DNA of 64,000 nt, from NCBI RefSeq assembly GCF_014170375.1, contig NZ_LZZW01000012.1:62001-126000 (forward strand). Direction: 5' to 3'. Positions 53,010 through 64,000 of this stretch are shown here, in pieces. Made by a program: the position numbers and the translations under genes. Numbering within the stretch: position 1 is the first letter of the stretch; each line of letters starts with the position of its first letter. Source of the DNA: Variovorax sp. UMC13 (GTDB taxonomy: Bacteria; Pseudomonadota; Gammaproteobacteria; Burkholderiales; Burkholderiaceae_C). The notes beneath the pieces are model-generated. The model ran no database searches. It saw only the letters and a program-made list of their open reading frames with translations, and was not told the DNA's origin.

Positions 53010-53564
53010 CTAGGTCGCCTGGTCGGCGGGCGCGACCGCCGGGCGGGGCCATTCGACGAAGGCGGGCTCGTGCCCGCGGGTGCGCAGCCAGTCGGCCAGC
53101 GCGTAGCCGGTGCCCGCCGGCCAGCACTTGAGGTCCGGCAGGTCGTAGAGCCGGTAGTCGACCAGTTCGGGCGAGAGCCGGACCTCGCCGTCGGCCACCA
53201 CGTGGTAGGCGATGATGACCTGGTTCATGCGCTGGAAGTCGTAGACGCCGACCAGCGCCACCGCGCTCGCGTCGAGGTTGGTTTCCTCCTTGACCTCGCG
53301 CGCGATGCCCTCCTGCGGCGTTTCGCCGGCCTCCATGAAGCCGGTGATCAGCGCGTACATCTTGTGCTGCCAGGCGGCGTTGCGCGCCAGCAGCACCTGC
53401 CCGCGGTACTCGACGATCGCGGCCAGCACCGGCGTCGGGTTGTTCCAGTGCGTCCAGTCGCAGTTCGGGCAGCGCAGGCGCGTGGTGAGGCCGCTGTCCT
53501 CGTGCTGTTCGATGTGGGCCAGCGGTGTCGCGCAGGCCGGGCAGAAGGTGGGGACGAAGACCAT
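53010..53564 (-). CDS. NUDIX hydrolase with zinc ribbon (NudC-like)
   Basis: The 184-residue protein starts with a zinc ribbon (Cys8, Cys11, Cys32, Cys35). The NUDIX domain follows, with the box GFMEAGETPQEGIAREVKEE (from residue 75) holding the metal-binding Glu residues. A zinc ribbon before the NUDIX domain is typical of NudC-type NAD(H) pyrophosphatases, but the protein is shorter than E. coli NudC (257), lacking its N-terminal domain. The substrate is therefore uncertain. It follows cysM by 9 nt. Confidence 0.85.
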   Translation of the reverse strand: MVFVPTFCPACATPLAHIEQHEDSGLTTRLRCPNCDWTHWNNPTPVLAAIVEYRGQVLLARNAAWQHKMYALITGFMEAGETPQEGIAREVKEETNLDASAVALVGVYDFQRMNQVIIAYHVVADGEVRLSPELVDYRLYDLPDLKCWPAGTGYALADWLRTRGHEPAFVEWPRPAVAPADQAT

Positions 53565-53573
53565 CGGGCGCGA

Positions 53574-54476
53574 TCAGGCGGGGAACACGCCGGTCGACAG
53601 GTAGCGGTCGCCGCGGTCGCAGACCACGAACACGATGGTCGCGTTCTCCACCGTCTTGGCGATCTCGAGCGCCGCCCACAGCGCGCCGGCGGCCGAGATG
53701 CCGCCGAAGATGCCCTCTTCGCGGGCCAGGCGCCGCGCCATGTCCTCGGCGTTGTCCTGGCTCACGTTGACCACCTGGTCGACCCGGCTCGGGTCGAAGA
53801 TCTTGGGCATGTATTCCTGCGGCCACTTGCGGATGCCCGGGATGCGCGAGCCGTCCTCGGGCTGCGCGCCCACGATCTGCACCGCGGGGTTCTTCTCCTT
53901 GAGGAAGCGCGACACCCCGGTGATGGTGCCGGTGGTGCCCATGGCGCTCACGAAATGCGTGACCTTGCCATGGGTGTCGGCCCAGATCTCGGGGCCGGTG
54001 GTCTCGTAGTGGATGCGCGGGTTGTCGGGGTTGGCGAACTGGTCAAGCACGCGGCCCTTGCCCTGCGCGACCATCTGGTCGGCCAGGTCGCGCGCGTACT
54101 CCATGCCGCCGCTCTTGGGCGTGAGCACGAGTTCGGCACCGAAGGCCTTCATGGTCTGGGCGCGTTCGATCGACAGGTCCTCCGGCATGATCAGCACCAT
54201 GCGGTAGCCCTTGATGGCCGCGGCCATGGCCAGCGCGATGCCGGTGTTGCCGGAGGTGGCCTCGATCAGCGTGTCGCCGGGCTTGATCTCGCCGCGCTCC
54301 TCGGCGCGCCGGATCATCGACAGGGCGGGCCGGTCCTTCACGGAACCGGCCGGGTTGTTGCCTTCCAGCTTGCCCAGGATCACGTTACCGCGCCGTACGT
54401 TGTCCGCGGCGCCAATGCGCTGCAGTGCCACCAGCGGCGTCTTGCCGATGGCATCTTCGATGGTCGGGTATTTCAT
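53574..54476 (-). CDS. cysM: Cysteine synthase B
   Basis: The 300-residue PLP enzyme makes cysteine from O-acetylserine and sulfide or thiosulfate. The PLP Lys47 lies in NPAGSVKDRPAL, and EATSGNTGIALAM and AMGTTGTITGVSRFL bind the cofactor phosphate and substrate. EGIFGGISAAGALWAAL and a short C-terminus favour CysM over CysK. ATG 54476 begins MKYPTIEDAIG. It heads the cysM-NUDIX-tusA run and is divergent from the tRNA-Leu region. Confidence 0.95.
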   Translation of the reverse strand: MKYPTIEDAIGKTPLVALQRIGAADNVRRGNVILGKLEGNNPAGSVKDRPALSMIRRAEERGEIKPGDTLIEATSGNTGIALAMAAAIKGYRMVLIMPEDLSIERAQTMKAFGAELVLTPKSGGMEYARDLADQMVAQGKGRVLDQFANPDNPRIHYETTGPEIWADTHGKVTHFVSAMGTTGTITGVSRFLKEKNPAVQIVGAQPEDGSRIPGIRKWPQEYMPKIFDPSRVDQVVNVSQDNAEDMARRLAREEGIFGGISAAGALWAALEIAKTVENATIVFVVCDRGDRYLSTGVFPA

Positions 54477-54487
54477 GCTGAGCACTG

Positions 54488-54496
54488 TGCCATAAT
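54488..54496 (+). promoter_or_regulatory. Candidate extended -10 promoter for the tRNA-Leu region
   Basis: TGC-CATAAT is an extended -10 element about 22 nt before the first tRNA-Leu 5' end at 54518. No good -35 hexamer is present at the usual distance. No convincing promoter was found directly before the complete intron-bearing tRNA at 54744, so this one may serve both by read-through. Confidence 0.35.
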
Positions 54497-54517
54497 TTTG
54501 AGCTTCTCTCCTTCCGT

Positions 54518-54556
54518 GCCCGGGTGGTGAAATTGGTAGACGCAGGGGACTCAAAA
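54518..54556 (+). pseudogene. Truncated tRNA-Leu(CAA), 5' half only
   Basis: This segment matches the 5' exon of the complete tRNA-Leu at 54744 almost base for base (one difference in the acceptor stem, GCCCGGG instead of GCCCGAG). It continues without an intron through the anticodon loop CTCAAAA. After 54556 the expected anticodon-stem strand TCCCC and the rest of the tRNA are missing. It therefore shows the uninterrupted anticodon and breaks exactly at the end of the anticodon loop. It cannot make a tRNA. The following 187 bp to 54743 hold no gene I can support. Confidence 0.8.
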
Positions 54557-54743
54557 ATAGGGACTTCTACGTAGTTCTTGCTTGAGGTCACTGCCTGCCA
54601 AGCCGCATGGGACAAGGGATTGAGTGATAAATCGCCTCTTGATCGAGATGCCTGCATTTCGAGCCAGGAGTCAGCTAGGAGCCAGGACGATGCAAGCTGG
54701 CTCCCAGTGAGGAGTAGATAGTTGAAGTAGCATCGTGCGTCAT

Positions 54744-55065
54744 GCCCGAGTGGTGAAATTGGTAGACGCAGGGGACTCAGACCAAATTTGAGCCCTCCGG
54801 GGGAAACCCCAGAGGTGAAGCCCGTCAAACTCGGCGAAGGCCCTGGACGCAAGTCCGAGCTAATACCGAGCCAAGCCCTGGAGCCGAAAGGCTCCTCGGA
54901 AGGTGTAGAGAGCAGACGGCGGGCACCTACGGCCGAAAGGCTATGGTGAAGGCGTGCTCCAGCCCACGAACGCCGTTTCTTCGGAGACGGCGGCGGCGAA
55001 AGCCGAAGTGGGAAGAAAATCCCCCGCCGCAAGGCGTGCCGGTTCGATTCCGGCCTCGGGCACCA
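54744..55065 (+). tRNA. tRNA-Leu (anticodon CAA) split by a group I intron
   Basis: The exons are 54744-54778 and 55016-55065. Acceptor strands GCCCGAG (54744-54750) and CTCGGGC (55055-55061) pair perfectly and a CCA end is encoded (55063-55065). The D-arm sequence GTGAAATTGGTAGACGC is leucine-like. The anticodon stem GGGGA/TCCCC closes a loop CTCAAAA once the exons are joined, giving anticodon CAA. A long class II variable arm (CGCCGCAAGGCG) and a normal T-arm (GCCGG-TTCGATT-CCGGC) follow. The intron lies between C34 and A35. Joined length is 85 nt. CAA reads UUG codons. Confidence 0.92.
54779..55015 (+). ncRNA. Group I intron (IC3 type) in the tRNA-Leu anticodon
   Basis: The 237-nt intron shows the conserved core of the small self-splicing tRNA introns of Azoarcus and cyanobacteria: GAGCCAAGC (54868-54876), GAAGGTGTAGAGA (54899-54911), AGACGGC (54914-54920), CACCTA (54924-54929) and CTATGGTGAAGGC (54941-54953). 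It ends in G (55015) as required. CUC of the 5' exon pairs with GAG at 54790-54792 to form P1. There is no homing endonuclease frame. Splicing would be protein-independent or nearly so, initiated by guanosine. The insertion point equals that of cyanobacterial tRNA-Leu(UAA) introns. Confidence 0.92.
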
Positions 55066-55072
55066 ATTCAAG

Positions 55073-55103
55073 AGCCGCCTCTGTCAAGCAGAGGCGGCTT
55101 TTT
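55073..55103 (+). terminator. Rho-independent terminator of tRNA-Leu
   Basis: AGCCGCCTCTG and CAGAGGCGGCT form an 11-bp perfect stem around TCAAG, followed by a TTTTT tract (55099-55103). It lies 8 nt after the tRNA CCA end. The same DNA encodes the C-terminal codons of the convergent DUF2274 gene. Confidence 0.93.
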
Positions 55104-55326
55104 CGTTCTTGGTCTGCGTGCGCTTGAATCCTCGATCCCCCGCCATGAAGGTTTCCAGCATGTACGGGATCAGCATCGTGGCATCGACCGCCTCCCCATA
55201 CGCCTGCGCGTACAGCGCGGCATAGCGGTCAAGGTCGGCTTTCAGGCTGACCGAGCACGCAAAGGTTAGCTTCGTGGACTCCAGCTTGGGCAGCGGCCCC
55301 AGCCGCAATTTCTTCGTCGTGCTCAT
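55084..55326 (-). CDS. DUF2274 protein at the end of the trb operon
   Basis: The 80-residue protein begins MSTTKKLRLGPLPKLES and has a ribbon-helix-helix-like stretch LTFACSVSLKADLDRYAALY, so DNA binding is possible. DUF2274 genes regularly follow trbI in Tn4371-like and related ICEs. Its ATG overlaps the trbI stop (ATGA). The last four residues and stop codon (AASA-stop) lie in the tRNA terminator stem, that is, on the host side of the proposed attachment site. The C-terminus may therefore differ from copies of the element elsewhere. Confidence 0.85.
   Translation of the reverse strand: MSTTKKLRLGPLPKLESTKLTFACSVSLKADLDRYAALYAQAYGEAVDATMLIPYMLETFMAGDRGFKRTQTKNEKAASA
55099..55106. other. Candidate ICE attachment site TTTTTCGT
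   Basis: This 8-mer lies at the junction of the chromosomal tRNA terminator and the conjugation operon. It differs by one base from TTTTTCAT, the known target and end sequence of Tn4371-family ICEs. The trb genes end here in the orientation expected for that family's trb-proximal end. The other end is outside the window, so the direct repeat could not be confirmed. Confidence 0.5.
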
Positions 55327-56585
55327 CGCATCGCCCCCCGCTGGAAGAACATCGGCTGGTACGGTCGCAACACCAGATCGCGGTTGACGATGATCCGCAC
55401 CGGCAGGCCCGGCCGCTCCGTCAAGGTCGGCTGAATGTTCATGTTGCGCCGGGTCATCTCCTGGCCGACCTGATTGATGCTGTCCTGCGCGCTGTCGCGC
55501 CCGGCAATCACGATGCGGTTGCCGTTCTGCCGGTTCTCCGGCGCGGCCAGCTCCGCGCCCACGCCCAGCAGTGTCGTCAGCGCCGCACCGGCAAAGACGC
55601 GATCCCAGTGCCAATCGACGCCATCCTCCAGGCCGGAGTAGCCGGCCGGGTCGGCGCCCGCGAGGTTGTCGAGCTTCAGCGAAGACGTATCCGGCAAGAT
55701 AATGCGGTTCCACACCACCTGCACGCGGCTCTGCCCATAGCTCATCTGGCTGTTGTACTTGCCCATGAGGCGCGAGCCCTGAGGGATCAACAGAAACTTG
55801 CCCGTGGCCGAGTCGTAGACCGGCTCCGTCACCGTGCCAATCACGTCGCCCGGCAGGTCCGACTTGATGCCTGTCACCAGCGCCCCGGCGATCACCGTCC
55901 CGGCCATCATCTGGTACGGCGAGGCTGGCATTTGCAGATTGCCAGAATTGCGGGTTTCCGTAGAACCGCCTTTCAGGAAAGCCTCTTTCTGGTCTTGCCG
56001 GTTCTGCACGGCGGTCGGGTCGGCAGGCTGGGCAGCCGTCGAGGCCGGCCCAGCGGCCAGCGGGTCGAAGCCCGCCAAGGTCGATGCCGGGCCAGCCGCT
56101 TGCGCAGTCGCTGGCGCTGCGGTCTTGCCGGGCGTACCAGAATGGAAGAACACCGAGGAAGCCGCTGCCGCTTCGGCTTCCTTGCGCCGAGCGTCCTCCG
56201 GGTCGTGGCCCGGTGGCGCATACGTGGGTGTCACCGGCTGCTGCGCCTTCACGATGGCAGGGCCGAGATCGCCCGGCAGCGGCGGCCCCAGCTCCGGCAC
56301 CTTCCGCAGCTTGGAGTAATCCGAAGGCAGGCCATCCAGCCCCTCGGACTTCGAGACGCGATCCACGTTGTAAAGCTCGGTCTGCTCGCCTGCGCCGCGC
56401 CGATGTGGCTGCAATGACCAGATCGTGGCCCCTAGCACGGCGACCGACAGGCCGCCCGTGAGCATGGCCAAGGTGCGCCGATTCAGGCGTGTGACCGGGC
56501 GCGGCTGGGCGCGCAGCGCCACCGCCTCGGGCGCGACCTTGCCCGCCTGTGGCGTGCCAAGATCGCGAGTGTCGTCCTGGCTCAT
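55323..56585 (-). CDS. trbI: TrbI / VirB10-like conjugal transfer protein
   Basis: This 420-residue protein spans inner and outer membranes in the type IV secretion core complex. It has a cytoplasmic N-terminus, one transmembrane helix (LAMLTGGLSVAVLGATIWSL), a long Pro/Ala-rich periplasmic linker and the conserved C-terminal VirB10 domain. Within that domain are GTVIAGALVTGIKSDLPGDV, LLIPQGSRLMGKYNSQ, VWNRIILPD and a hydrophobic antenna region (FAGAALTTLLGVGAEL). It starts 2 nt after trbG ends and overlaps DUF2274. Confidence 0.95.
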   Translation of the reverse strand: MSQDDTRDLGTPQAGKVAPEAVALRAQPRPVTRLNRRTLAMLTGGLSVAVLGATIWSLQPHRRGAGEQTELYNVDRVSKSEGLDGLPSDYSKLRKVPELGPPLPGDLGPAIVKAQQPVTPTYAPPGHDPEDARRKEAEAAAASSVFFHSGTPGKTAAPATAQAAGPASTLAGFDPLAAGPASTAAQPADPTAVQNRQDQKEAFLKGGSTETRNSGNLQMPASPYQMMAGTVIAGALVTGIKSDLPGDVIGTVTEPVYDSATGKFLLIPQGSRLMGKYNSQMSYGQSRVQVVWNRIILPDTSSLKLDNLAGADPAGYSGLEDGVDWHWDRVFAGAALTTLLGVGAELAAPENRQNGNRIVIAGRDSAQDSINQVGQEMTRRNMNIQPTLTERPGLPVRIIVNRDLVLRPYQPMFFQRGAMR

Positions 56586-56587
56586 GG

Positions 56588-57580
56588 TCAGTTCCTCCGC
56601 GTGCCACCGGAAACGCCATCGGTGCGCTCGATCCGCACCACATCGCCCTTGTCTCCGCCCAGGCGCAGTTCGGCCGCACCGAACAGGCGATCCACGATGT
56701 AATACGGCGACCGAAAACGGTAGTTCACCAACTGCCCGTCGCCCTGCGCGCCGATGACGAACAGCGGCGGCAGCTCGCCCTGCGCGATGCCCGGCGGGAA
56801 CTGGATGTAGACCTTCCCGCCGTCATCGAAGGCGCGCAGCGGCTTCCACGGCGGATTGCTGCCGCTGACCGCGTAGCGGAAGCGGATCTTCTCCAGCGAC
56901 AGGCCGCTATCGACCGGCGCGACGGCGCTGGCCGCTTGCGCCTGGCGCTGCAGGGCCAGCATCTTGTCCTTCGGGTACTCCCAGGACAACGACGCCATCC
57001 ACGTCTTCTCGGTCGAAGTCAGCTCCAGCAGGTAGGTGCGCCGGCTGGTGGTGATGACTAGGTTGGTCTTCAACCCCGAGCGGATCGGTTTGACCATCAC
57101 ATTGACGCGCAGCGCATCGCCGCTGCCGCTCGACGTGTCCCCGACGATCCAGCGAACCGTGTCGCCAGCAGCCACCGTCACCAGCTCCTCACCAGGCTGG
57201 AGCGCGATCACCGTCACGCGGCCCACGGCCGCATAGACCTGATACAGCGCGCCATCTGTGAAGGGCCACACTTGAATCGCGTTGACGTAGCCCTCGCGCG
57301 TGGGCGCAATACGCGCCTCGGCGTTGGCGCGAGACACGCGCACGGTTTCATCGGCGGGTTCTGCGACGGACTTGGCATCCGGCACAGGTTTCATCTGCGC
57401 TGGCATCGGCAGCACCTGCGGCACAGCCACTACCTCCACAGGCGTAGGCGGCTCCGGCAGCGGCTGGGCCTGCACCGGCTCATCGAGCGAGATGGACGGC
57501 GGCGGCTTGCCCTGCGTAGCGCAGCCCGTGAGGGCAAGCAGCATGATCGGCAAGGCGGATTTACGGAAAAGATCATTCAT
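56588..57580 (-). CDS. trbG: TrbG / VirB9-like conjugal transfer protein
   Basis: The 330-residue core-complex protein has a lipoprotein-type signal (LPIMLLALTGC, predicted lipidated Cys). A Pro-rich segment precedes the VirB9/CagX domain with AIQVWPFTDGALYQVYAAVG, VTVIALQPGEELVTVAAGD, TNLVITTSRRTYLLELTS and the C-terminal PWKPLRAFDDGGKVYIQFP. VirB9 normally works with the lipoprotein VirB7; here the lipobox on TrbG itself may replace that anchor. ATG 57580 overlaps the trbF stop by 4 nt. Confidence 0.94.
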   Translation of the reverse strand: MNDLFRKSALPIMLLALTGCATQGKPPPSISLDEPVQAQPLPEPPTPVEVVAVPQVLPMPAQMKPVPDAKSVAEPADETVRVSRANAEARIAPTREGYVNAIQVWPFTDGALYQVYAAVGRVTVIALQPGEELVTVAAGDTVRWIVGDTSSGSGDALRVNVMVKPIRSGLKTNLVITTSRRTYLLELTSTEKTWMASLSWEYPKDKMLALQRQAQAASAVAPVDSGLSLEKIRFRYAVSGSNPPWKPLRAFDDGGKVYIQFPPGIAQGELPPLFVIGAQGDGQLVNYRFRSPYYIVDRLFGAAELRLGGDKGDVVRIERTDGVSGGTRRN

Positions 57581-58281
57581 GGTTTTGCTCCTTCGTTCGC
57601 TTCCAGTTCGCGGCTCCACGACAGCCCGTTGGCGTAGATGCCCAGGGGGTTTTTGCGCACGCGCTGCTCGGTGCGCGGCGTCTGCTGCACGATGGACACC
57701 ACGGCGTTCCAGCGTTCGGTGCGATCCAGCGCGCCGTTGACGAAGCGCGTCTCCGTCCAGCGCACGTTGAACGACGTGTCGCTGGCGCGGGTCACGCTGC
57801 TGATCTGCACCGTCACCGACTCCTTGCCGATACGCGCGAACGGATCGTTCACGCGGGCGTACTCGTTGAGCACCACGGCGCCTTTGTCGGTCGTGTAGTC
57901 ATAGGCATCGAGCCAGTTCTGCCGCACCACGATGGGGTCGATGGACAGCGAGCGCACCAGACCGATGAAGCGGCCGAGGTGGTAAGCAATCTGCGCATCG
58001 CTGGGCCGGTACGGCGTGGCCGCTTCGCCGACAGCGCGCACCTGACCCGAGTTGTCCACCTCGATGACGTAGGGGGTGACGATGGACTGCGCGGAACGCC
58101 AGACCAGGCCACCGGCCATCAGTACGGCCAAAGTGAGGCAGCCGAAGGCCATGAACCGCCAGTTCTTCGCCTGTACGCGGGCCGAGCCGATGCGCTCGTC
58201 CCAGGCCTGGGCGGCGGATTGGTACGGGGTAGCAGGCTGCGGTGTGTTGGCATAGCGCACCTGCGGTCTTTTGAATCGCAT
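57577..58281 (-). CDS. trbF: TrbF / VirB8-like conjugal transfer protein
   Basis: This 234-residue bitopic inner-membrane protein has an N-terminal cytoplasmic tail, one transmembrane helix (FMAFGCLTLAVLMAGGLVW) and a periplasmic VirB8 domain with TPYVIEVDNSGQVRAVG, FIGLVRSLSIDPIVVRQNW and SFNVRWTETRF. It helps assemble the secretion channel. ATGA overlap with trbG shows coupled translation. Confidence 0.94.
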   Translation of the reverse strand: MRFKRPQVRYANTPQPATPYQSAAQAWDERIGSARVQAKNWRFMAFGCLTLAVLMAGGLVWRSAQSIVTPYVIEVDNSGQVRAVGEAATPYRPSDAQIAYHLGRFIGLVRSLSIDPIVVRQNWLDAYDYTTDKGAVVLNEYARVNDPFARIGKESVTVQISSVTRASDTSFNVRWTETRFVNGALDRTERWNAVVSIVQQTPRTEQRVRKNPLGIYANGLSWSRELEANEGAKP

Positions 58282-58299
58282 GGGAGTTCTCCTTCAAGA

Positions 58300-59634
58300 T
58301 CAGGAATCGGAATCACGCAGGCTTGGCCCCTGGCTGGAGCTGCCGCCGTCGCCGCCGCGCAGCGTGTGGGCGGCGGTCGTCGCGGCATGGGTGAGTTGCT
58401 GCCTGCGGTGCAGGCGCTTGGCCCAGGCGGGTTGTTCGGCAGACGGAGCCGATCCGCTAGCGTCAGGGTCGGCGTGCGCGGCGCCGGAGGCCGGCGCGTC
58501 ATCGGGCCGAAAGGCCGCCGCCATGCGTTCCTTCATCGACCGCGCCCCATCGGCGACTTTCTGCCCGGCCGCCTGCGCGCCGGTCTTGGCAACATTGCCC
58601 ACGCCGGCGGCGGCACCCTTCAGGCCGCCACCGGCCGAAGTGGAGCCCGCCTGGTACGTCGACTTGGCGCTGCTGGCGGTCGATGCCATCGAGCGGGCGG
58701 CGGCGGGTGCCATGCGTGCCCCGGCCGCCACTGCGCTTCCGACGCCGGTAGCCGCGGCACCGACCGCCACGGCGGTTCCGGCTGCGCCGATGGCAGCACC
58801 GGCCATCGCGCCCGCGCCGAGCTGTGGCCCACCGGACACCAAGCCTGTCGCAATGCCCGGCCCAAAGATGCCCAGGGCCAGCATGGACAATGAGGCCAGC
58901 ATGATGACCAGCGCCTGGTCGATGGACGGCTCGGAACCGGGCGGTATCCTGAATTCGGCGAACAGCCCTGAGCCGATACCCACGACGACGGCGAGCACCA
59001 GCACCTTGATGCCCGAGGACACCACGTTGCCCAGCACCTTCTCGGCCATAAACGCTGTCTTGTTCCAGAGGGCAAACGGCACCAGCACGAAGCCCGCCAG
59101 CGTGGTCAGCTTGAACTCGATCAACGTGACGAAGAGTTGCACCGCCAGCACGAAGAAGCTGACGATGACCACCAGCCAAGCGAGAAATAGCACGACGATG
59201 GGCGCGATGTGGATGAAGACCTCCGGGAAGCCCGCCATCTCCCGGATCTGGTCGAGGATGGGCGCCGCTGCGTCGATACCGGCCTTGGCCAACCGTCCCG
59301 GCTGCAGGAAGTTGCCCATGCTCAAGGTCGAGCCGCTGGCCGTCAGGCCCAGCCCGGCGAATGAGCGGAACAGGATGCCCGCCAGGGTGTTGAAATTGCC
59401 GATGATGTAGGCGAAGGCACCCACGTACAGCACCTTGCGGATCAGCTTGGCGATCACGTCCTCGCCCTGGCCGGTGGCATGCCCCATCGCCCAGAACAGC
59501 CCGGCGAGCGTCATGTCGATGACGATCAACGTTGCGGTCAGGAACGCCACCTCGCCATGCAACAGTCCGAAGCCCGAGTCGATGTAGCGCGAGAAGATGT
59601 CGAGGAAGCGGTCAATGACCGAAACGTCGTTCAT
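58300..59634 (-). CDS. trbL: TrbL / VirB6-like conjugal transfer protein
   Basis: The 444-residue polytopic inner-membrane protein has five or more hydrophobic helices in the first 270 residues (including FLTATLIVIDMTLAGLFWAM and TTLAGFVLVPFALWNKTAF, the family's conserved Trp region). A long Ala/Gly-rich cytoplasmic or periplasmic tail follows, ending with a charged, low-complexity segment. VirB6-type proteins form part of the inner-membrane channel. It follows trbJ by 12 nt with no trbK between. Confidence 0.94.
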   Translation of the reverse strand: MNDVSVIDRFLDIFSRYIDSGFGLLHGEVAFLTATLIVIDMTLAGLFWAMGHATGQGEDVIAKLIRKVLYVGAFAYIIGNFNTLAGILFRSFAGLGLTASGSTLSMGNFLQPGRLAKAGIDAAAPILDQIREMAGFPEVFIHIAPIVVLFLAWLVVIVSFFVLAVQLFVTLIEFKLTTLAGFVLVPFALWNKTAFMAEKVLGNVVSSGIKVLVLAVVVGIGSGLFAEFRIPPGSEPSIDQALVIMLASLSMLALGIFGPGIATGLVSGGPQLGAGAMAGAAIGAAGTAVAVGAAATGVGSAVAAGARMAPAAARSMASTASSAKSTYQAGSTSAGGGLKGAAAGVGNVAKTGAQAAGQKVADGARSMKERMAAAFRPDDAPASGAAHADPDASGSAPSAEQPAWAKRLHRRQQLTHAATTAAHTLRGGDGGSSSQGPSLRDSDS

Positions 59635-59646
59635 GGCCTGGCTCCG

Positions 59647-60375
59647 TCAACGACTGTAGAAATCGACGGACCGCGGCGTGTACGGCGTGCCCTCACCCAG
59701 GAAGCGCCGGTTCACCTCGCGGCCCCGCTCCACGGCGGCGGCCTGCCGCGCCAGTTCCAGCGAGCCCGCGCGATCCTGCGTGATCTGCAGCCGCTGCGTT
59801 TGGATCGACTGCTTGGCCTGCAGGGCCAGCAACTGGTTCGTGGCCTGCATCGCCTGCAAAGCGCCCACCGCCGATTGGCTCTTGCCCACGAGGTCGGCCA
59901 GCACGCCTTCGTCGTCGCTCAGGTTCTGCGATGCCTGAGCCTGCATCTGCATGGTGGTCTGCAGGCCATCGAGCGTGTTCTTCCAGCGTTCCTGCGCGTC
60001 GCGGTACATCTGGTTGCCGCTCACGGTGGCGGCGTATTGCTCGGGGTACAGGCGCTGGAATTCCCGATCCAGATTCGTCACGTCATAGGCCAAGCCCTTG
60101 GCCTGCGCGATCAGCCGCTGGGTGGTCGCCAGATTGGCGCGCAGCTGGCCGACCACGCTGGATGGCAGACTGGCCAGGTTGCGCGCCTGGTTGATGAGCA
60201 TCTGCGCTTCGTTCTGGAGCTGCTTGATCTGGTTGTTGATCTGCTCCAGCGTGCGGATCGCGGTCAGCGTGTTCTGCACGAGGTTCGTGGGGTCGATCAC
60301 GACCCATTGCGCCTGCACGGCGGTAGCGGTGCAAAGCATGGCCGCGACGGCGGCGGCGAGAAGACGCTTTTTCAT
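59647..60375 (-). CDS. trbJ: TrbJ / VirB5-like conjugal transfer protein
   Basis: This 242-residue periplasmic protein has a cleavable signal peptide (LLAAAVAAMLCTATAVQA|Q). The mature part is mostly helical with long Gln/Leu-rich coiled-coil segments (IRTLEQINNQIKQLQNEAQ), as in VirB5/TrbJ minor pilins or adhesins. ATG 60375 overlaps the trbE stop by 4 nt. TrbJ contributes to pilus assembly and mating contact. Confidence 0.92.
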   Translation of the reverse strand: MKKRLLAAAVAAMLCTATAVQAQWVVIDPTNLVQNTLTAIRTLEQINNQIKQLQNEAQMLINQARNLASLPSSVVGQLRANLATTQRLIAQAKGLAYDVTNLDREFQRLYPEQYAATVSGNQMYRDAQERWKNTLDGLQTTMQMQAQASQNLSDDEGVLADLVGKSQSAVGALQAMQATNQLLALQAKQSIQTQRLQITQDRAGSLELARQAAAVERGREVNRRFLGEGTPYTPRSVDFYSR

Positions 60376-62810
60376 GATGGGTTCTCCTGGAGATGGGTGG
60401 ACGGGAACGAGGACAGCAGGTCGGCGGCCCAATTCAGGCCGCGATGGCGCAGCCACGCGGCTACGAACGGGGTGGAAGCGGATGAAGCGGCAGCGAGCAC
60501 CGCGTCGATGTCGCGCTGGTCTTGCGGCGTGGACGTGCCCGCAAAGGCCAGCGTCGCGGCGCCCAGGTCGAGGTCGAACAGGCGGTTGCCGAGTCGGGAT
60601 TGGTAGTAGTAGTCGCGCTTGGGCTGCGCGGTCGCCACGATCTCGATCTGGCGCGAGTTCAGCCCGAAGCCTTCGTAGATAACCCTGATCTGCGGCTCGG
60701 TCGCCTGTGGGTTGGGCAGGAAGATGCGGCTCGCGCAGCTCTCGATGATTGCGGGCGCGATGCTCGAATCCTTGATGTCCGCCAGGCTCTGCGTGGCGAA
60801 GATGACGCTCACGTTCTTCTTGCGCAGCGTCTTGAGCCATTGGCGGATGCGCGCCGCAAACACCGGGTCATCGAGGAACAGCCACGCTTCATCGAGGATC
60901 AGCAGCGTGGGCGCACCGTCGAAGCGTTCATCGAAGCGCGCAAAGAGGTAATGCAGCACGGCCATGACGGCGGCCTTGCTGTGCATCAGTTCCTCCATCT
61001 CGAAGCACTGCACGGAGCCGGCGCCCAGGCGATCCGAATCCGCATCCAGCAGCTTGCCGTGGGCGCCGCCCAGCACGTACGGCGCGAGCGCCTGGCGCAG
61101 CGCATTCGATTGCAGCAGCACCGACAGGCCGGTCATCGTGCGCTGCTCCACCGGCGCACCGGCGAGACTGCCGAGCGCCGACCAGATGGCGGCCTTCTCT
61201 TCGGGGCCGACGGCTACACCCTCATGCCGCAAGCGCCCTTCGATCCATTCGGCGGCCCAGGTGCGGTAGCCCTCGCGGTCGATGCGGGCGAGAGGCTGAA
61301 ACGCGATCTCGCCATCCATCCCGAGGTCGTAGTGCTCGCCACCCAGCCCGAGGATGGTGGCGCGCATCGAGCGTCCCATGTCGAAGGCAAAGATGCGCGA
61401 GCCGCGATAGCGCCGAAACTGCATCGCCAATGTGGCGAGCAGCACCGACTTGCCCATGCCCGTAGGACCAGCCACCAGCGTGTGGCCCACGTCGCCGATG
61501 TGCGTCACCAGCCGGAACGGCGTCGCGCCCTCAGTGCGCGTGACGATCAGCGGCGGGCCGTCGAGGTGCGCGTTCTTCTCCGGCCCGGCCCATACCGCCG
61601 ACACCGGCATCAGGTGCGCCAGGTTCAACGTGGAGACAATGGGCTGGCGCACGTTCGCGTAGGCATGACCCGGAATGGACGACAGCCACGCATCCACGGC
61701 GTTGAGCGTTTCGGGGATGGTGACGAAGCCACGCCCCTGGATGACGCGCTCCACCCTGCGCAGCTTCTCGTCGGCCACGGCGGCATCCGCGTCCATGACG
61801 GTGACGGTCGCTGTCACGTAGCCGAAGGCCACTTGATCGCTGCCCAGCTCCTGCAAGGCGGCATCGGCATCGGTGGCCTTGTTGCTGGCGTCGGTATCGA
61901 CCAGCGGGCTTTCTTGCTGGAAGATCGTCTCGCGCAGCAGCGCGATGACGTTCTTGCGCTTGGCGAACCACTGGCGGCGCAAGCGCCCCAACTCCCGTTC
62001 CGCCTCGGATTTGTCGAGGCACAGAAAGCGCGTGCTCCAGCGATACCCAAATCCCAGGCGGTTGAGGTCGTCCAGAATCCCCGGCCAGGTCGAGGTCGGG
62101 AAACCGCGCACCGTCGCCACGCGCAGATGCTGGTCGCCCAGCATCGGTGCCAGGCCGCCGATCAGCGGCGCGTCGGCTAGCAGAGCGTCGAGGTGGAATG
62201 GCACCTCGGGCACGCCCACGCGGTAACGCCGCGTTGAAACGGTGGCATGCAGGTAGGTCAGCGTCTGGCTGTCATCGAGCCAGACGATCTCCGGCATCAC
62301 GCCATCGAGCAGGTCAAAGATGCGATCCGTCTCCGCGACGAAGGCAGTTAGGCGCTCGCGCCAATCCACGCCTTCGGTGGGTCGGTTCTCATAGAGCAGC
62401 CCTGCTGCGCGGGCGCGCGACTCCTCGGCCGGCAGGTACACCAGCGTGAGGTGGTAGCCACTCTCGAAATGGTTGCCCGAGTCCTCGAAGGCGGCGCGGC
62501 GCTCCTCGTCCACCAGCCAGGACAGCGGCTCAGGAAACTCCGAGTGCGGGTAGCTGGCCGCGGGCCGGCGCTCGGCTTCGATGAACAGCGCCCAGCCCGA
62601 GCTCAGGCGGCGCAGCGCGTTGTTCAGCCGCGCCGACGTGGAGATCAACTCGCCCTGCGTCGCGCTGTCGAGGTCAGGCCCCCGAAAGCGCGCCGTGCGC
62701 TGGAAGGCGCCATCCTTGTTCAGCACGACGCCCGGCGCGATCAGCCCGGCCCAAGGCAGCCAGTCGGCCAGCAGCGCCGGCCGCTGGCGGTATTCGGCAA
62801 GGTTCAGCAT
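60372..62810 (-). CDS. trbE: TrbE / VirB4-like secretion ATPase
   Basis: The 812-residue ATPase powers pilus assembly and transfer. It has the N-terminal VirB4 domain (LNLAEYRQRPALLADWLPWA) and a C-terminal RecA-like domain with Walker A AGPTGMGKSVL (about residue 450) and Walker B TLLILDEAWLFLDDP (about 640), followed by VSVIFATQSLADI. Length is usual. ATG 62810 begins MLNLAEY, 10 nt after trbD. Confidence 0.96.
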   Translation of the reverse strand: MLNLAEYRQRPALLADWLPWAGLIAPGVVLNKDGAFQRTARFRGPDLDSATQGELISTSARLNNALRRLSSGWALFIEAERRPAASYPHSEFPEPLSWLVDEERRAAFEDSGNHFESGYHLTLVYLPAEESRARAAGLLYENRPTEGVDWRERLTAFVAETDRIFDLLDGVMPEIVWLDDSQTLTYLHATVSTRRYRVGVPEVPFHLDALLADAPLIGGLAPMLGDQHLRVATVRGFPTSTWPGILDDLNRLGFGYRWSTRFLCLDKSEAERELGRLRRQWFAKRKNVIALLRETIFQQESPLVDTDASNKATDADAALQELGSDQVAFGYVTATVTVMDADAAVADEKLRRVERVIQGRGFVTIPETLNAVDAWLSSIPGHAYANVRQPIVSTLNLAHLMPVSAVWAGPEKNAHLDGPPLIVTRTEGATPFRLVTHIGDVGHTLVAGPTGMGKSVLLATLAMQFRRYRGSRIFAFDMGRSMRATILGLGGEHYDLGMDGEIAFQPLARIDREGYRTWAAEWIEGRLRHEGVAVGPEEKAAIWSALGSLAGAPVEQRTMTGLSVLLQSNALRQALAPYVLGGAHGKLLDADSDRLGAGSVQCFEMEELMHSKAAVMAVLHYLFARFDERFDGAPTLLILDEAWLFLDDPVFAARIRQWLKTLRKKNVSVIFATQSLADIKDSSIAPAIIESCASRIFLPNPQATEPQIRVIYEGFGLNSRQIEIVATAQPKRDYYYQSRLGNRLFDLDLGAATLAFAGTSTPQDQRDIDAVLAAASSASTPFVAAWLRHRGLNWAADLLSSFPSTHLQENPS

Positions 62811-62820
62811 GGCATTCCCC

Positions 62821-63105
62821 TCACACGTCCAGCAGCGGCCGGTGCTTGATGTGGCGCGCGAAGACCTGCATGAACTGCGGATCGACACGCGCACCCCAGA
62901 CCGCCAGCGCATGGCCGGCGATCCAGAGCACCACGCCCGGAATCCACAGTTGCAGGCCCAAGCCCACGGCGGCGGCCAAGGTGCCATTGGCAATCGCCAC
63001 TGTGCGCGGCGCGCCGCCCAGCAGGATCGGCTCGGTCAGCGAGCGATGCAGGGGCACCTCGAAACCTGGAGCGAACCCCTGCACGCCATCGTGGGCCGCG
63101 TTCAT
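62821..63105 (-). CDS. trbD: TrbD / VirB3-like conjugal transfer protein
   Basis: This 94-residue inner-membrane protein has PLHRSLTEPILLGGAPR (the conserved VirB3/TrbD opening), then hydrophobic helices (TLAAAVGLGLQLWIPGVVLW) and a basic tail. It works with the VirB4 ATPase. ATG 63105 overlaps the trbC stop. Confidence 0.92.
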   Translation of the reverse strand: MNAAHDGVQGFAPGFEVPLHRSLTEPILLGGAPRTVAIANGTLAAAVGLGLQLWIPGVVLWIAGHALAVWGARVDPQFMQVFARHIKHRPLLDV

Positions 63106-63494
63106 ACGACGGCCCCGCCCGAGAAGCTGAAGAACGACAGGAAGAACGAGGACGCGGCAAACGCGATCGACAGACCGAAGACGATCTGGATCAGCTTGCG
63201 GAACCCGCCCGAGGTATCGCCGAAGGCCAGCGCCAGGCCCGTGGCGATGATGATGATGACCGCGATGATCCGGGCCACCGGACCCTGGATCGACTCCAGG
63301 ATGGATTGCAGCGGCCCCTCCCAGGGCATCGAGGAACCTGCGGCCTGCGCGGTGCCTGCGAGCAGCAGCATCAGCGCCGCGAGCATCAGACCCTGCAGGG
63401 CCGGGCGCGCCAAGCCATCCAGCCGCGCGGGGTGGCAGCGCAGGGCAAGCGGGTTTACAGAAATACGGAAAGCAGGAACGATCATCTGCGTCAT
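63102..63494 (-). CDS. trbC: TrbC / VirB2-like pilin precursor
   Basis: The 130-residue precursor has a long leader with a hydrophobic signal (LMLAALMLLLAGTAQA) and a mature part of about 80 residues with two hydrophobic helices (RIIAVIIIIATGLALAFGD and IQIVFGLSIAFAASSFFLSF) separated by a short loop, the shape of conjugative pilins. It is the pilus subunit. Overlap with trbB and trbD keeps it in the operon. Confidence 0.93.
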   Translation of the reverse strand: MTQMIVPAFRISVNPLALRCHPARLDGLARPALQGLMLAALMLLLAGTAQAAGSSMPWEGPLQSILESIQGPVARIIAVIIIIATGLALAFGDTSGGFRKLIQIVFGLSIAFAASSFFLSFFSFSGGAVV

Positions 63495-64000
63495 GGCAGT
63501 TCTCCAGGTTGATCAGGGGACACGGAAGAAAGGTCGGACTGCGGCAGCAGCTCCGGGAATGGAGCCTCCAGCGCATCCGCCAGTTGGTAGCCCGAGCCGT
63601 CGAAGCCGACGACCCGAGCGATGCTCTCGATGCGGCGCTTGCGTCCGCGCCCGGCAATGTGGATGACCACGTTGACCGCTTCCGCGATCAGCGCACGGGG
63701 CGGGTTCACCGCCACTTCGAGAATCAGTTGCTCCAGGCGCAGCAGCGCGCCCAGCGCGGAGCCGGCGTGGATCGTGGCGATGCCGCCGGGGTGGCCGGTG
63801 CCCCAGACCTTGATGAGATCCAGTGCCTCGGCGCCGCGCACCTCGCCGACGACCACACGATCCGGGCGCAGGCGCATGGACGAACGCACCAGCTCGGTCA
63901 TGGACACGACGCCCTGGCGCGTGCGCAGCGGTACGTGATCGCGCGCCGCGCATTGCAGCTCCACCGTGTCTTCGAGCACCAGCACGCGGTCGCCCGTGGC
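63491..64000 (-). CDS. trbB: TrbB / VirB11-like secretion ATPase (C-terminal part)
   Basis: About 170 C-terminal residues are visible; the gene runs off the right edge. Present are [10 protein letters not shown] (Asp box), [32 protein letters not shown] (given here only as the Walker B/Asp-Glu region at about nt 63,840-63,930) and [17 protein letters not shown] (His box) of the VirB11 hexameric ATPases. The Walker A motif must lie outside the window. It is the first trb gene of the operon. Confidence 0.94.

Follow-up and report, generated by a model that had tools for sequence, protein, structure and literature searches.

An integrative conjugative element (ICE) of 66.8 kb occupies the anticodon loop of the tRNA-Leu(CAA) gene of Variovorax sp. 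UMC13, and just inside its left end it carries a second, complete tRNA-Leu(CAA) gene that is interrupted by a group I intron. Both this architecture and the identity of the locus as the left end of such an element are close to certain. The intron lies inside the element's own 7-nt integration core, CTCAAAA, which it splits into CTC and AAAA. We posit, with a probability of about two in three, that the element splits the host tRNA-Leu(CAA) via this core, that the intron shields the spare gene from the element's integrase, and that splicing restores the tRNA.

The split host gene and the boundaries of the element

In the window (the whole 64-kb stretch of DNA that was analysed), the host tRNA-Leu(CAA) gene is truncated in the anticodon loop, with its 5′ half at 54518-54556 on the forward strand. 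The last 7 nt of this half, CTCAAAA (54550-54556), are the integration core and the left end of the element, and beyond them the half runs into non-tRNA DNA. A whole-genome search placed the 3′ half at G000:C12:183385-183437, 66.8 kb from the 5′ half, where CTCAAAA again forms the junction with the right end of the element. All 7 acceptor-stem positions pair between the halves (GCCCGGG/CCCGGGC). CTCAAAA makes up the whole anticodon loop (positions 32-38), and the tRNA and the element ends have no further sequence in common. Since the ends match the tRNA over only 7 nt, nothing restores the host gene and the split is permanent. The same whole-genome search found no further tRNA-Leu(CAA) in the window genome, its two full-length matches being an intact tRNA-Leu(UAA) (L004) and, by reading, a tRNA-Leu(UAG).

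G896 and G965, both from the genus of the window genome, represent the empty site and hold an intact, intronless tRNA-Leu(CAA). Window positions 53501-54556 align to both. In each, the alignment to the left flank of the window (88.8% and 84.7%) shares exactly 7 nt with the alignment to the right tRNA half; past the right tRNA half, the DNA of G896 and G965 gave no alignment to the window genome. Left of the insertion lies a host gene for a PALP-family enzyme (53574-54554, reverse strand, Pfam, start codon uncertain), which we take to be cysM-like. To the right of the core, an unstranded left-end spacer (54557-54743) starts ATAGGGACTTCTACGTAG and has close likes in other insertions.

The intron-bearing tRNA gene

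The replacement tRNA-Leu(CAA) lies 226 bp inside the left end of the element, in the same orientation as the host gene. By sequence reading and ARAGORN, its 5′ exon (54744-54778, forward strand) ends in C34; the group I intron follows at 54779-55015 on the same strand, 237 nt long with a terminal G at 55015, between positions 34 and 35; and the 3′ exon (55016-55065, forward strand) starts AAAATCCCC and runs through to CCA. The gene pairs 7/7 with itself in the acceptor stem (GCCCGAG/CTCGGGC) and is followed 3′ by a terminator-like hairpin (55070-55102, forward strand), and a promoter consensus scan of 54440-55140 returned no match. The original prediction, made from the sequence alone, had placed a group I intron in a beta-proteobacterial tRNA-Leu(CAA) at 54744-55065; these coordinates proved exact, the 237-nt insert was confirmed by direct sequence reading, and the host assignment was right. 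ARAGORN with introns allowed also agreed with the predicted complete exons, giving a tRNA-Leu(CAA) of 85 bases with an intron of 237 (gactc-intron-aaaat); in default mode it reported zero tRNA in the 64-kb window. The terminal G of the intron was read directly in the window and also by ARAGORN, and it recurs in 132/132 intron rows measured, where the finder script demanded a G. Splicing after U33 was ruled out by reading, as no 3′ exon starting CAAAA is present. The predicted insertion at 34/35 likewise held up: it is that of the tRNA-Leu(UAA) introns, unlike that of the tRNA-Ile(CAU) relatives L033, L037 and L038, Azoarcus-type group I introns of other Burkholderiales that by reading follow U36.

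Structurally, the helices of the window intron were placed at 54776-54778/54790-54792 (P1), 54820-54826/54918-54924 (P3), 54831-54834/54866-54869 (P4) and 54910-54914/54955-54959 (P7). The check proposed for the prediction, a significant match to the Rfam model RF00028, was not obtained (18.7 bits, E = 0.39, cut-off 50), yet this model is insensitive for tRNA-type introns. It gave no match up to E = 1 for L017, which is the window intron, or for its relatives L024 and L042; a close CAA relative, L018, scored 35.7 bits (E = 8e-6). The Azoarcus-type tRNA-Ile intron L038 (47.3 bits) also falls under the cut-off, and we therefore rejected RF00028 as a yes/no test. Group I identity was borne out by two other lines of evidence. 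A hidden Markov model built from 20 tRNA-Leu(UAA) introns, drawn from other genomes and from plasmids with the window excluded, matches 54784-55014 with E = 1.9e-56, which is its sole match in the 64 kb at E ≤ 10. In addition, 39 aligned introns (22 with C34 and 17 with U34) were compared over P1-P9 without P6: 92.6% of cells are paired under the group I secondary structure, 38 pairs have changes on both sides, and the covariation score is 0.353. On each of the five measures 0/500 shuffles came up to the observed value, and when the structure was slid along, pairing dropped to about 30-45%. P7, the pseudoknot partner of P3, is 100% paired in 39/39 introns with 3 covarying pairs, including two adjacent pairs that have swapped jointly (G-C in 32 and C-G in 7; C-G in 31, U-A in 7 and U.G in 1). 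The tRNA-type group I core (P3-P8, with the P7 pseudoknot) is thus supported by covariation.

At the 5′ splice site, the 39 aligned introns have C-G in 22, U.G in 16 and U-A in 1, the window having C34-G. The distribution follows the anticodon, with C-G in CAA introns (their search pattern included the guide GAG) and U.G in UAA introns with one exception. To our knowledge, U.G is near-universal at the group I 5′ splice site. C-G is a conserved trait here, and we do not take the missing U.G as ground to exclude group I membership; it looks as if the anticodon went from UAA to CAA with the guide unchanged, and the C-G pair may slow the first splicing step. The same pair, together with the intact tRNA-Leu(UAA) gene of this genome, could speak for a dead copy, in which the tRNA stays unspliced because the splice-site wobble is lost and UUG is read by tRNA-Leu(UAA). 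We regard this as highly improbable, given that the acceptor strands of the element tRNA form 7 Watson-Crick pairs in 24/24 elements compared and that P7 is maintained in every intron aligned.

Content of the element

Directly right of the intron-bearing tRNA, a reverse-strand cluster at 55323-63657 encodes, by Pfam, TrbI, CagX/TrbG-like, VirB8/TrbF-like, TrbL, CagE/TrbE-like ATPase, VirB3-like and TrbC proteins; the Trb letters other than TrbI, TrbL, TrbC and TrbE are equivalents that we presume. It is followed by part of a TrbB-like secretion ATPase (63491-64000, reverse strand, Pfam T2SSE), whose whole open reading frame, G000:C12:125491-126528, continues past the window end. Type IV transfer genes are thus present in the element, which also encodes a ParB-domain protein, an 800-aa DUF3363 protein, of a domain that we take to be linked to relaxases, and metabolic cargo (an acyl-CoA dehydrogenase, an AMP-binding enzyme, a short-chain dehydrogenase and a periplasmic binding protein). 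At the other end, 178 bp from the right core, stands a 450-aa protein with Phage_integrase, arm-binding and SAM-like domains, which make it a tyrosine integrase at one element end. The Trb-type transfer genes are shared with Tn4371-like elements, a name and kinship that we assume, and integrase relatives of about 59-64% identity may belong there. Nine loci of these relatives were scanned for motifs in flanks of about 1.5 kb; eight have no tRNA half, and the remaining one (L152) has one motif that is not readable as tRNA.

The window element differs from a copy in Bordetella ansorpii (G687) by 1 base in 66,842, which points to a transfer that took place very recently or, with lower probability, to one contaminant present in both. 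Element and intron thus move between genera, as they would if the intron were a selfish RNA riding the element to its own benefit. We consider this very unlikely: intron length is 204-262 nt in all 132 rows measured, which would leave no room for a homing endonuclease, and the element by itself explains the spread.

Recurrence of the arrangement

A CAA leucine tRNA as host of such an intron had been called less familiar in this lineage. In 84,980 species genomes, a pattern scan that looked for the intron P1-P3 blocks after a tRNA-Leu 5′ exon with C34 showed that such hosts are not rare. The scan found 104 stretches, nearly all labelled proteobacterial; by record title, they come mostly from beta- and gamma-proteobacteria, many being metagenome-assembled genomes (MAGs) named only Proteobacteria or Pseudomonadota. 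The 3′ exon was readable in 102/104, all tRNA-Leu(CAA) with the intron between 34 and 35; because GAG was a required part of the pattern at the guide, introns with other guides would have escaped it. One contig filed as a Mycobacterium MAG (L057) holds a proteobacterial-type intron tRNA, probably through a binning error. With L018 (an extra locus outside the scan), L042 and the window, the 102 give 105 CAA rows with both exons, 104 of them distinct (L042 is the same locus as L138); L026 and L045 are likewise one locus. L059, where the locus ends in the intron, and L110, whose intron breaks off, have no readable 3′ exon and stand outside the 105; the genome of L059 is G687, where the full arrangement is present.

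A clean split host 5′ half, with ACTC and then AAAA, was found 218-292 bp upstream in 27/105 rows including the window, after five of 32 upstream 5′-half matches had been dropped (L071 and L079 imperfect, L072 in tandem, L073 47 nt away and L125 not ending in ACTC). At L072 (844-1700), an intron-bearing tRNA-Leu(UAA) and an intron-bearing tRNA-Leu(CAA) stand in tandem, 588 bp apart. The other 78/105 rows have no clean split host half upstream, and since these are most of the CAA-intron loci, the intron apparently also exists in resident genes. Candidatus Vallotia offers resident-looking examples, its reduced genomes (L080, L106, L118 and L120; records of about 1.1 Mb) retaining an intron-bearing tRNA-Leu(CAA). 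The window gene could accordingly be pictured, as the original prediction had it, as a plain resident chromosomal tRNA gene with an intron that has no functional link to the neighbouring element. This picture is contradicted by the clean cases and has hardly any probability left: the host halves change from host to host (their starts include GCCGAAG, TCCGAAG, GCCTCGG, GCCGGAG and GCCCAGG), whereas the intron-bearing tRNA starts GCCCGAG or GCCCGGG in 27/27, and the left-end spacer at these loci comes in a few types, most starting AAAAATAGG.

Twenty-four genomes were examined for tRNA pieces and integrase, covering 22 of the 26 other clean loci (all save L084, L092, L097 and L100) plus L059 and L049. 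In 21/24, the host 3′ half has an integrase at a distance of 170-180 bp; that of G671 is an 86-aa stump at a contig end and that of G668 is in two frames, and the assemblies of G667, G677 and G685 yielded no integrase. In all 21 right ends read (20 genomes and the window), CTCAAAA is the point where element DNA gives way to host tRNA. Of 23 CAA elements, 22 have host halves that form 7 Watson-Crick pairs with each other, and one has halves that form 6; the host 5′ half forms only 4-6 pairs with the element's own 3′ exon in 13/23. The order of host 5′ half, intron-bearing tRNA, integrase and host 3′ half thus recurs in more than 20 genomes. Sizes were computed by hand from coordinates for elements on one contig, the ends lying on separate contigs elsewhere: those of the window, G683, G684, G686 and G687 are each 66.8 kb, and the others are about 49.5 kb (G670), about 18 (G680), 77.5 (G675), 73.4 (G678), 25.5 (G673), about 71 (G681), 50.2 (G906), 82.4 (G692) and 58.2 kb (G950).

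Two loci depart from this layout. A gamma-proteobacterial element (L064, G668:C69:22231-42636) has its integrase in two pieces and two 3′ halves 8.8 kb apart, perhaps as two elements in a row. In Pusillimonas caeni (L204), two intron-bearing tRNA-Leu(CAA) genes lie about 5 kb apart, and the stretch read contains no bare 5′ half; this may be a recombined element end.

Integrase phylogeny and a parallel case at tRNA-Leu(UAA)

Starting from the integrase, near matches at a threshold of E ≤ 1e-180 were found in ten genomes (G000, G804, G692, G778, G856, G859, G877, G906, G950 and G267), of which five (G804, G778, G856, G859 and G877) coincide by coordinates with genomes already counted. The intron-bearing tRNA stands behind a split host half in 9/10, with left end and integrase on different contigs in G778, G859 and G877. 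The tenth, G267, shows a right end only, beside a contig end and a degenerate 3′ half; it has an intact tRNA-Leu(CAA) elsewhere and no visible intron-bearing tRNA. The nine are not nine independent events, because elements of one integrase clade are kin. A class-wide integrase search at E ≤ 1e-168 found only the window genome itself (1/369 genomes). Set against the 9/10 above, BLAST with the window intron found a tRNA-Leu(CAA) intron in only 3/300 genomes of the order (the window genome, G207 and G164), and among the 22 BLAST loci of the order L034 is unclassified and L025 is an intron fragment without tRNA exons. Phage records gave partial matches only (14 records); in Gordonia phage Daredevil, a 74% match to part of the intron (NC_048021.1:41853-41971) has no listed feature at that place.

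Evolutionarily, CAA-site integrases group in a single clade (24 rows including G267, support 98/96, midpoint root). A parallel arrangement exists at tRNA-Leu(UAA), which L192, L194, L195 and L019 show as elements that split this gene at CTTAAAA and carry an intron-bearing tRNA-Leu(UAA). In Variovorax sp. Root473 (G684), the host tRNA-Leu(UAA) is split at CTTAAAA, an intron-bearing tRNA-Leu(UAA) lies 203 bp inside the UAA element, and at the other end the host 3′ half is flanked by an integrase of 66% identity, 177 bp away from the core. Similar UAA left ends, left ends only, were found in G906, G193 and G965 (L194, L019 and L195), the empty UAA target is seen in G896 (L196), and no split half was found at the other UAA-type loci examined. 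The single UAA-type integrase in the tree falls outside the CAA clade on a long branch, and the arrangement therefore arose twice or predates the split.

These data also bear on whether the intron has any role in integration. An ancestral element may simply have captured a leucine tRNA that held its intron and, precise loss being rare, carried it along ever since. Introns in tRNA-Leu usually sit at this very site, and the match to the core may therefore be accidental; tRNA-Leu(UAA) introns without an upstream split half are frequent among the Burkholderiales loci examined; and the correlation between intron and integrase distances is only moderate (Mantel r 0.50, 5/5000 permutations as high, n = 22 elements). 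Against this, the intron is retained with integrases down to 67% identity and recurs at another anticodon together with a separate integrase lineage, and all assessable integrase-first elements have it (9/9). We judge such passive carriage unlikely, though it keeps appreciable weight.

Intron-bearing tRNA-Leu(UAA) genes also occur on resistance plasmids. A complete one with a group I intron lies at 5995-6292 of L009 (Klebsiella pneumoniae plasmid NZ_KT818627.1), genes of this type having as neighbours aac(3)-IId and an AAA-ATPase, which in one record is tunicamycin-resistance-like. The intron and 3′ part of the L009 gene have matches in 1353 plasmid records, 1246 of them over at least 80%. The window tRNA has a match in 624/5426 complete Escherichia coli genomes, with 575/654 places plasmid-borne and no annotated feature underneath in 8/8 rows among the matches listed.

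A proposed integrase shield

Functionally, we propose that the tyrosine integrase recombines at CTCAAAA, in the anticodon loop of tRNA-Leu(CAA), and would thereby split the host gene permanently, the element supplying a complete spare tRNA-Leu(CAA) instead of restoring that gene; crossover by the element's own integrase, splicing and tRNA function are here predicted from sequence. An intact spare would give the integrase another attB (GGGGA-CTCAAAA-TCCCC), some hundreds of bases away from the element end, and the tRNA target is not freely mutable, because the anticodon stem-loop is needed for function. The intron between C34 and A35 would break the core and put 237 bp between the anticodon-stem arms in DNA, so that the integrase should not be able to act on the spare gene, and predicted self-splicing would rejoin the exons in RNA to give tRNA-Leu(CAA). 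The shielding role, which the position of the intron suggests, is likely; it would account for the presence of an intron in the spare, for the position of that intron, and for element ends that need no further tRNA sequence. More broadly, proteobacterial tRNA-Leu group I introns could be kept as anticodon-loop integrase shields, with at least two integrase lineages depending on them and many resident intron-bearing tRNAs being remnants of decayed elements, a proposal that we advance tentatively and at slightly under even odds.

Relation to known systems and significance

The window intron resembles the cyanobacterial and plastid tRNA-Leu(UAA) introns and the Azoarcus tRNA-Ile(CAU) intron in its core blocks, P3/P7 pseudoknot, small size and anticodon-loop site, and shares the exact insertion point with the tRNA-Leu(UAA) group, of which a proteobacterial member was reportedly described by Vepritskiy and colleagues in 2002. 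It differs from them in its CAA anticodon, in having C-G and not U.G, and in its place on a conjugative element at that element's own core.

Islands in tRNA genes as catalogued by Islander likewise combine a tyrosine integrase, an anticodon-loop crossover and displaced tRNA fragments at the ends, and there the gene is restored by a tRNA fragment within attP (PMC4383910). In contrast to this standard case, the ends described here match the tRNA over 7 nt only, the island end does not complete the host tRNA, and a separate, whole, intron-bearing tRNA is supplied. Island finding by Islander begins with detected tRNA genes (PMC4383910); as default ARAGORN does not find the intron-bearing tRNA, elements of this kind may go unnoticed.

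Closer in concept is the reported proposal of Randau and Soell that archaeal tRNA introns and split genes block integration by viruses and other elements (PMC4090602, PMC3218864). There too an anticodon-loop intron disrupts attB, but the likely user here is the element itself, the setting is bacterial, and the intron is of group I and predicted to self-splice. A search of the full-text literature, in which subscription journals are thinly covered, found no description of a group I intron tied to an integrase, island, conjugative element or attachment site.

If our reading is true, the intron lets a widespread conjugative element destroy a host tRNA gene and yet supply a spare that its integrase should not use, and the archaeal proposal of tRNA introns as guards becomes concretely testable in bacteria. 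Bacterial group I introns have been assumed to be benign selfish elements (PMC3984707); if they act as shields, they would have a selected function in the biology of mobile elements.
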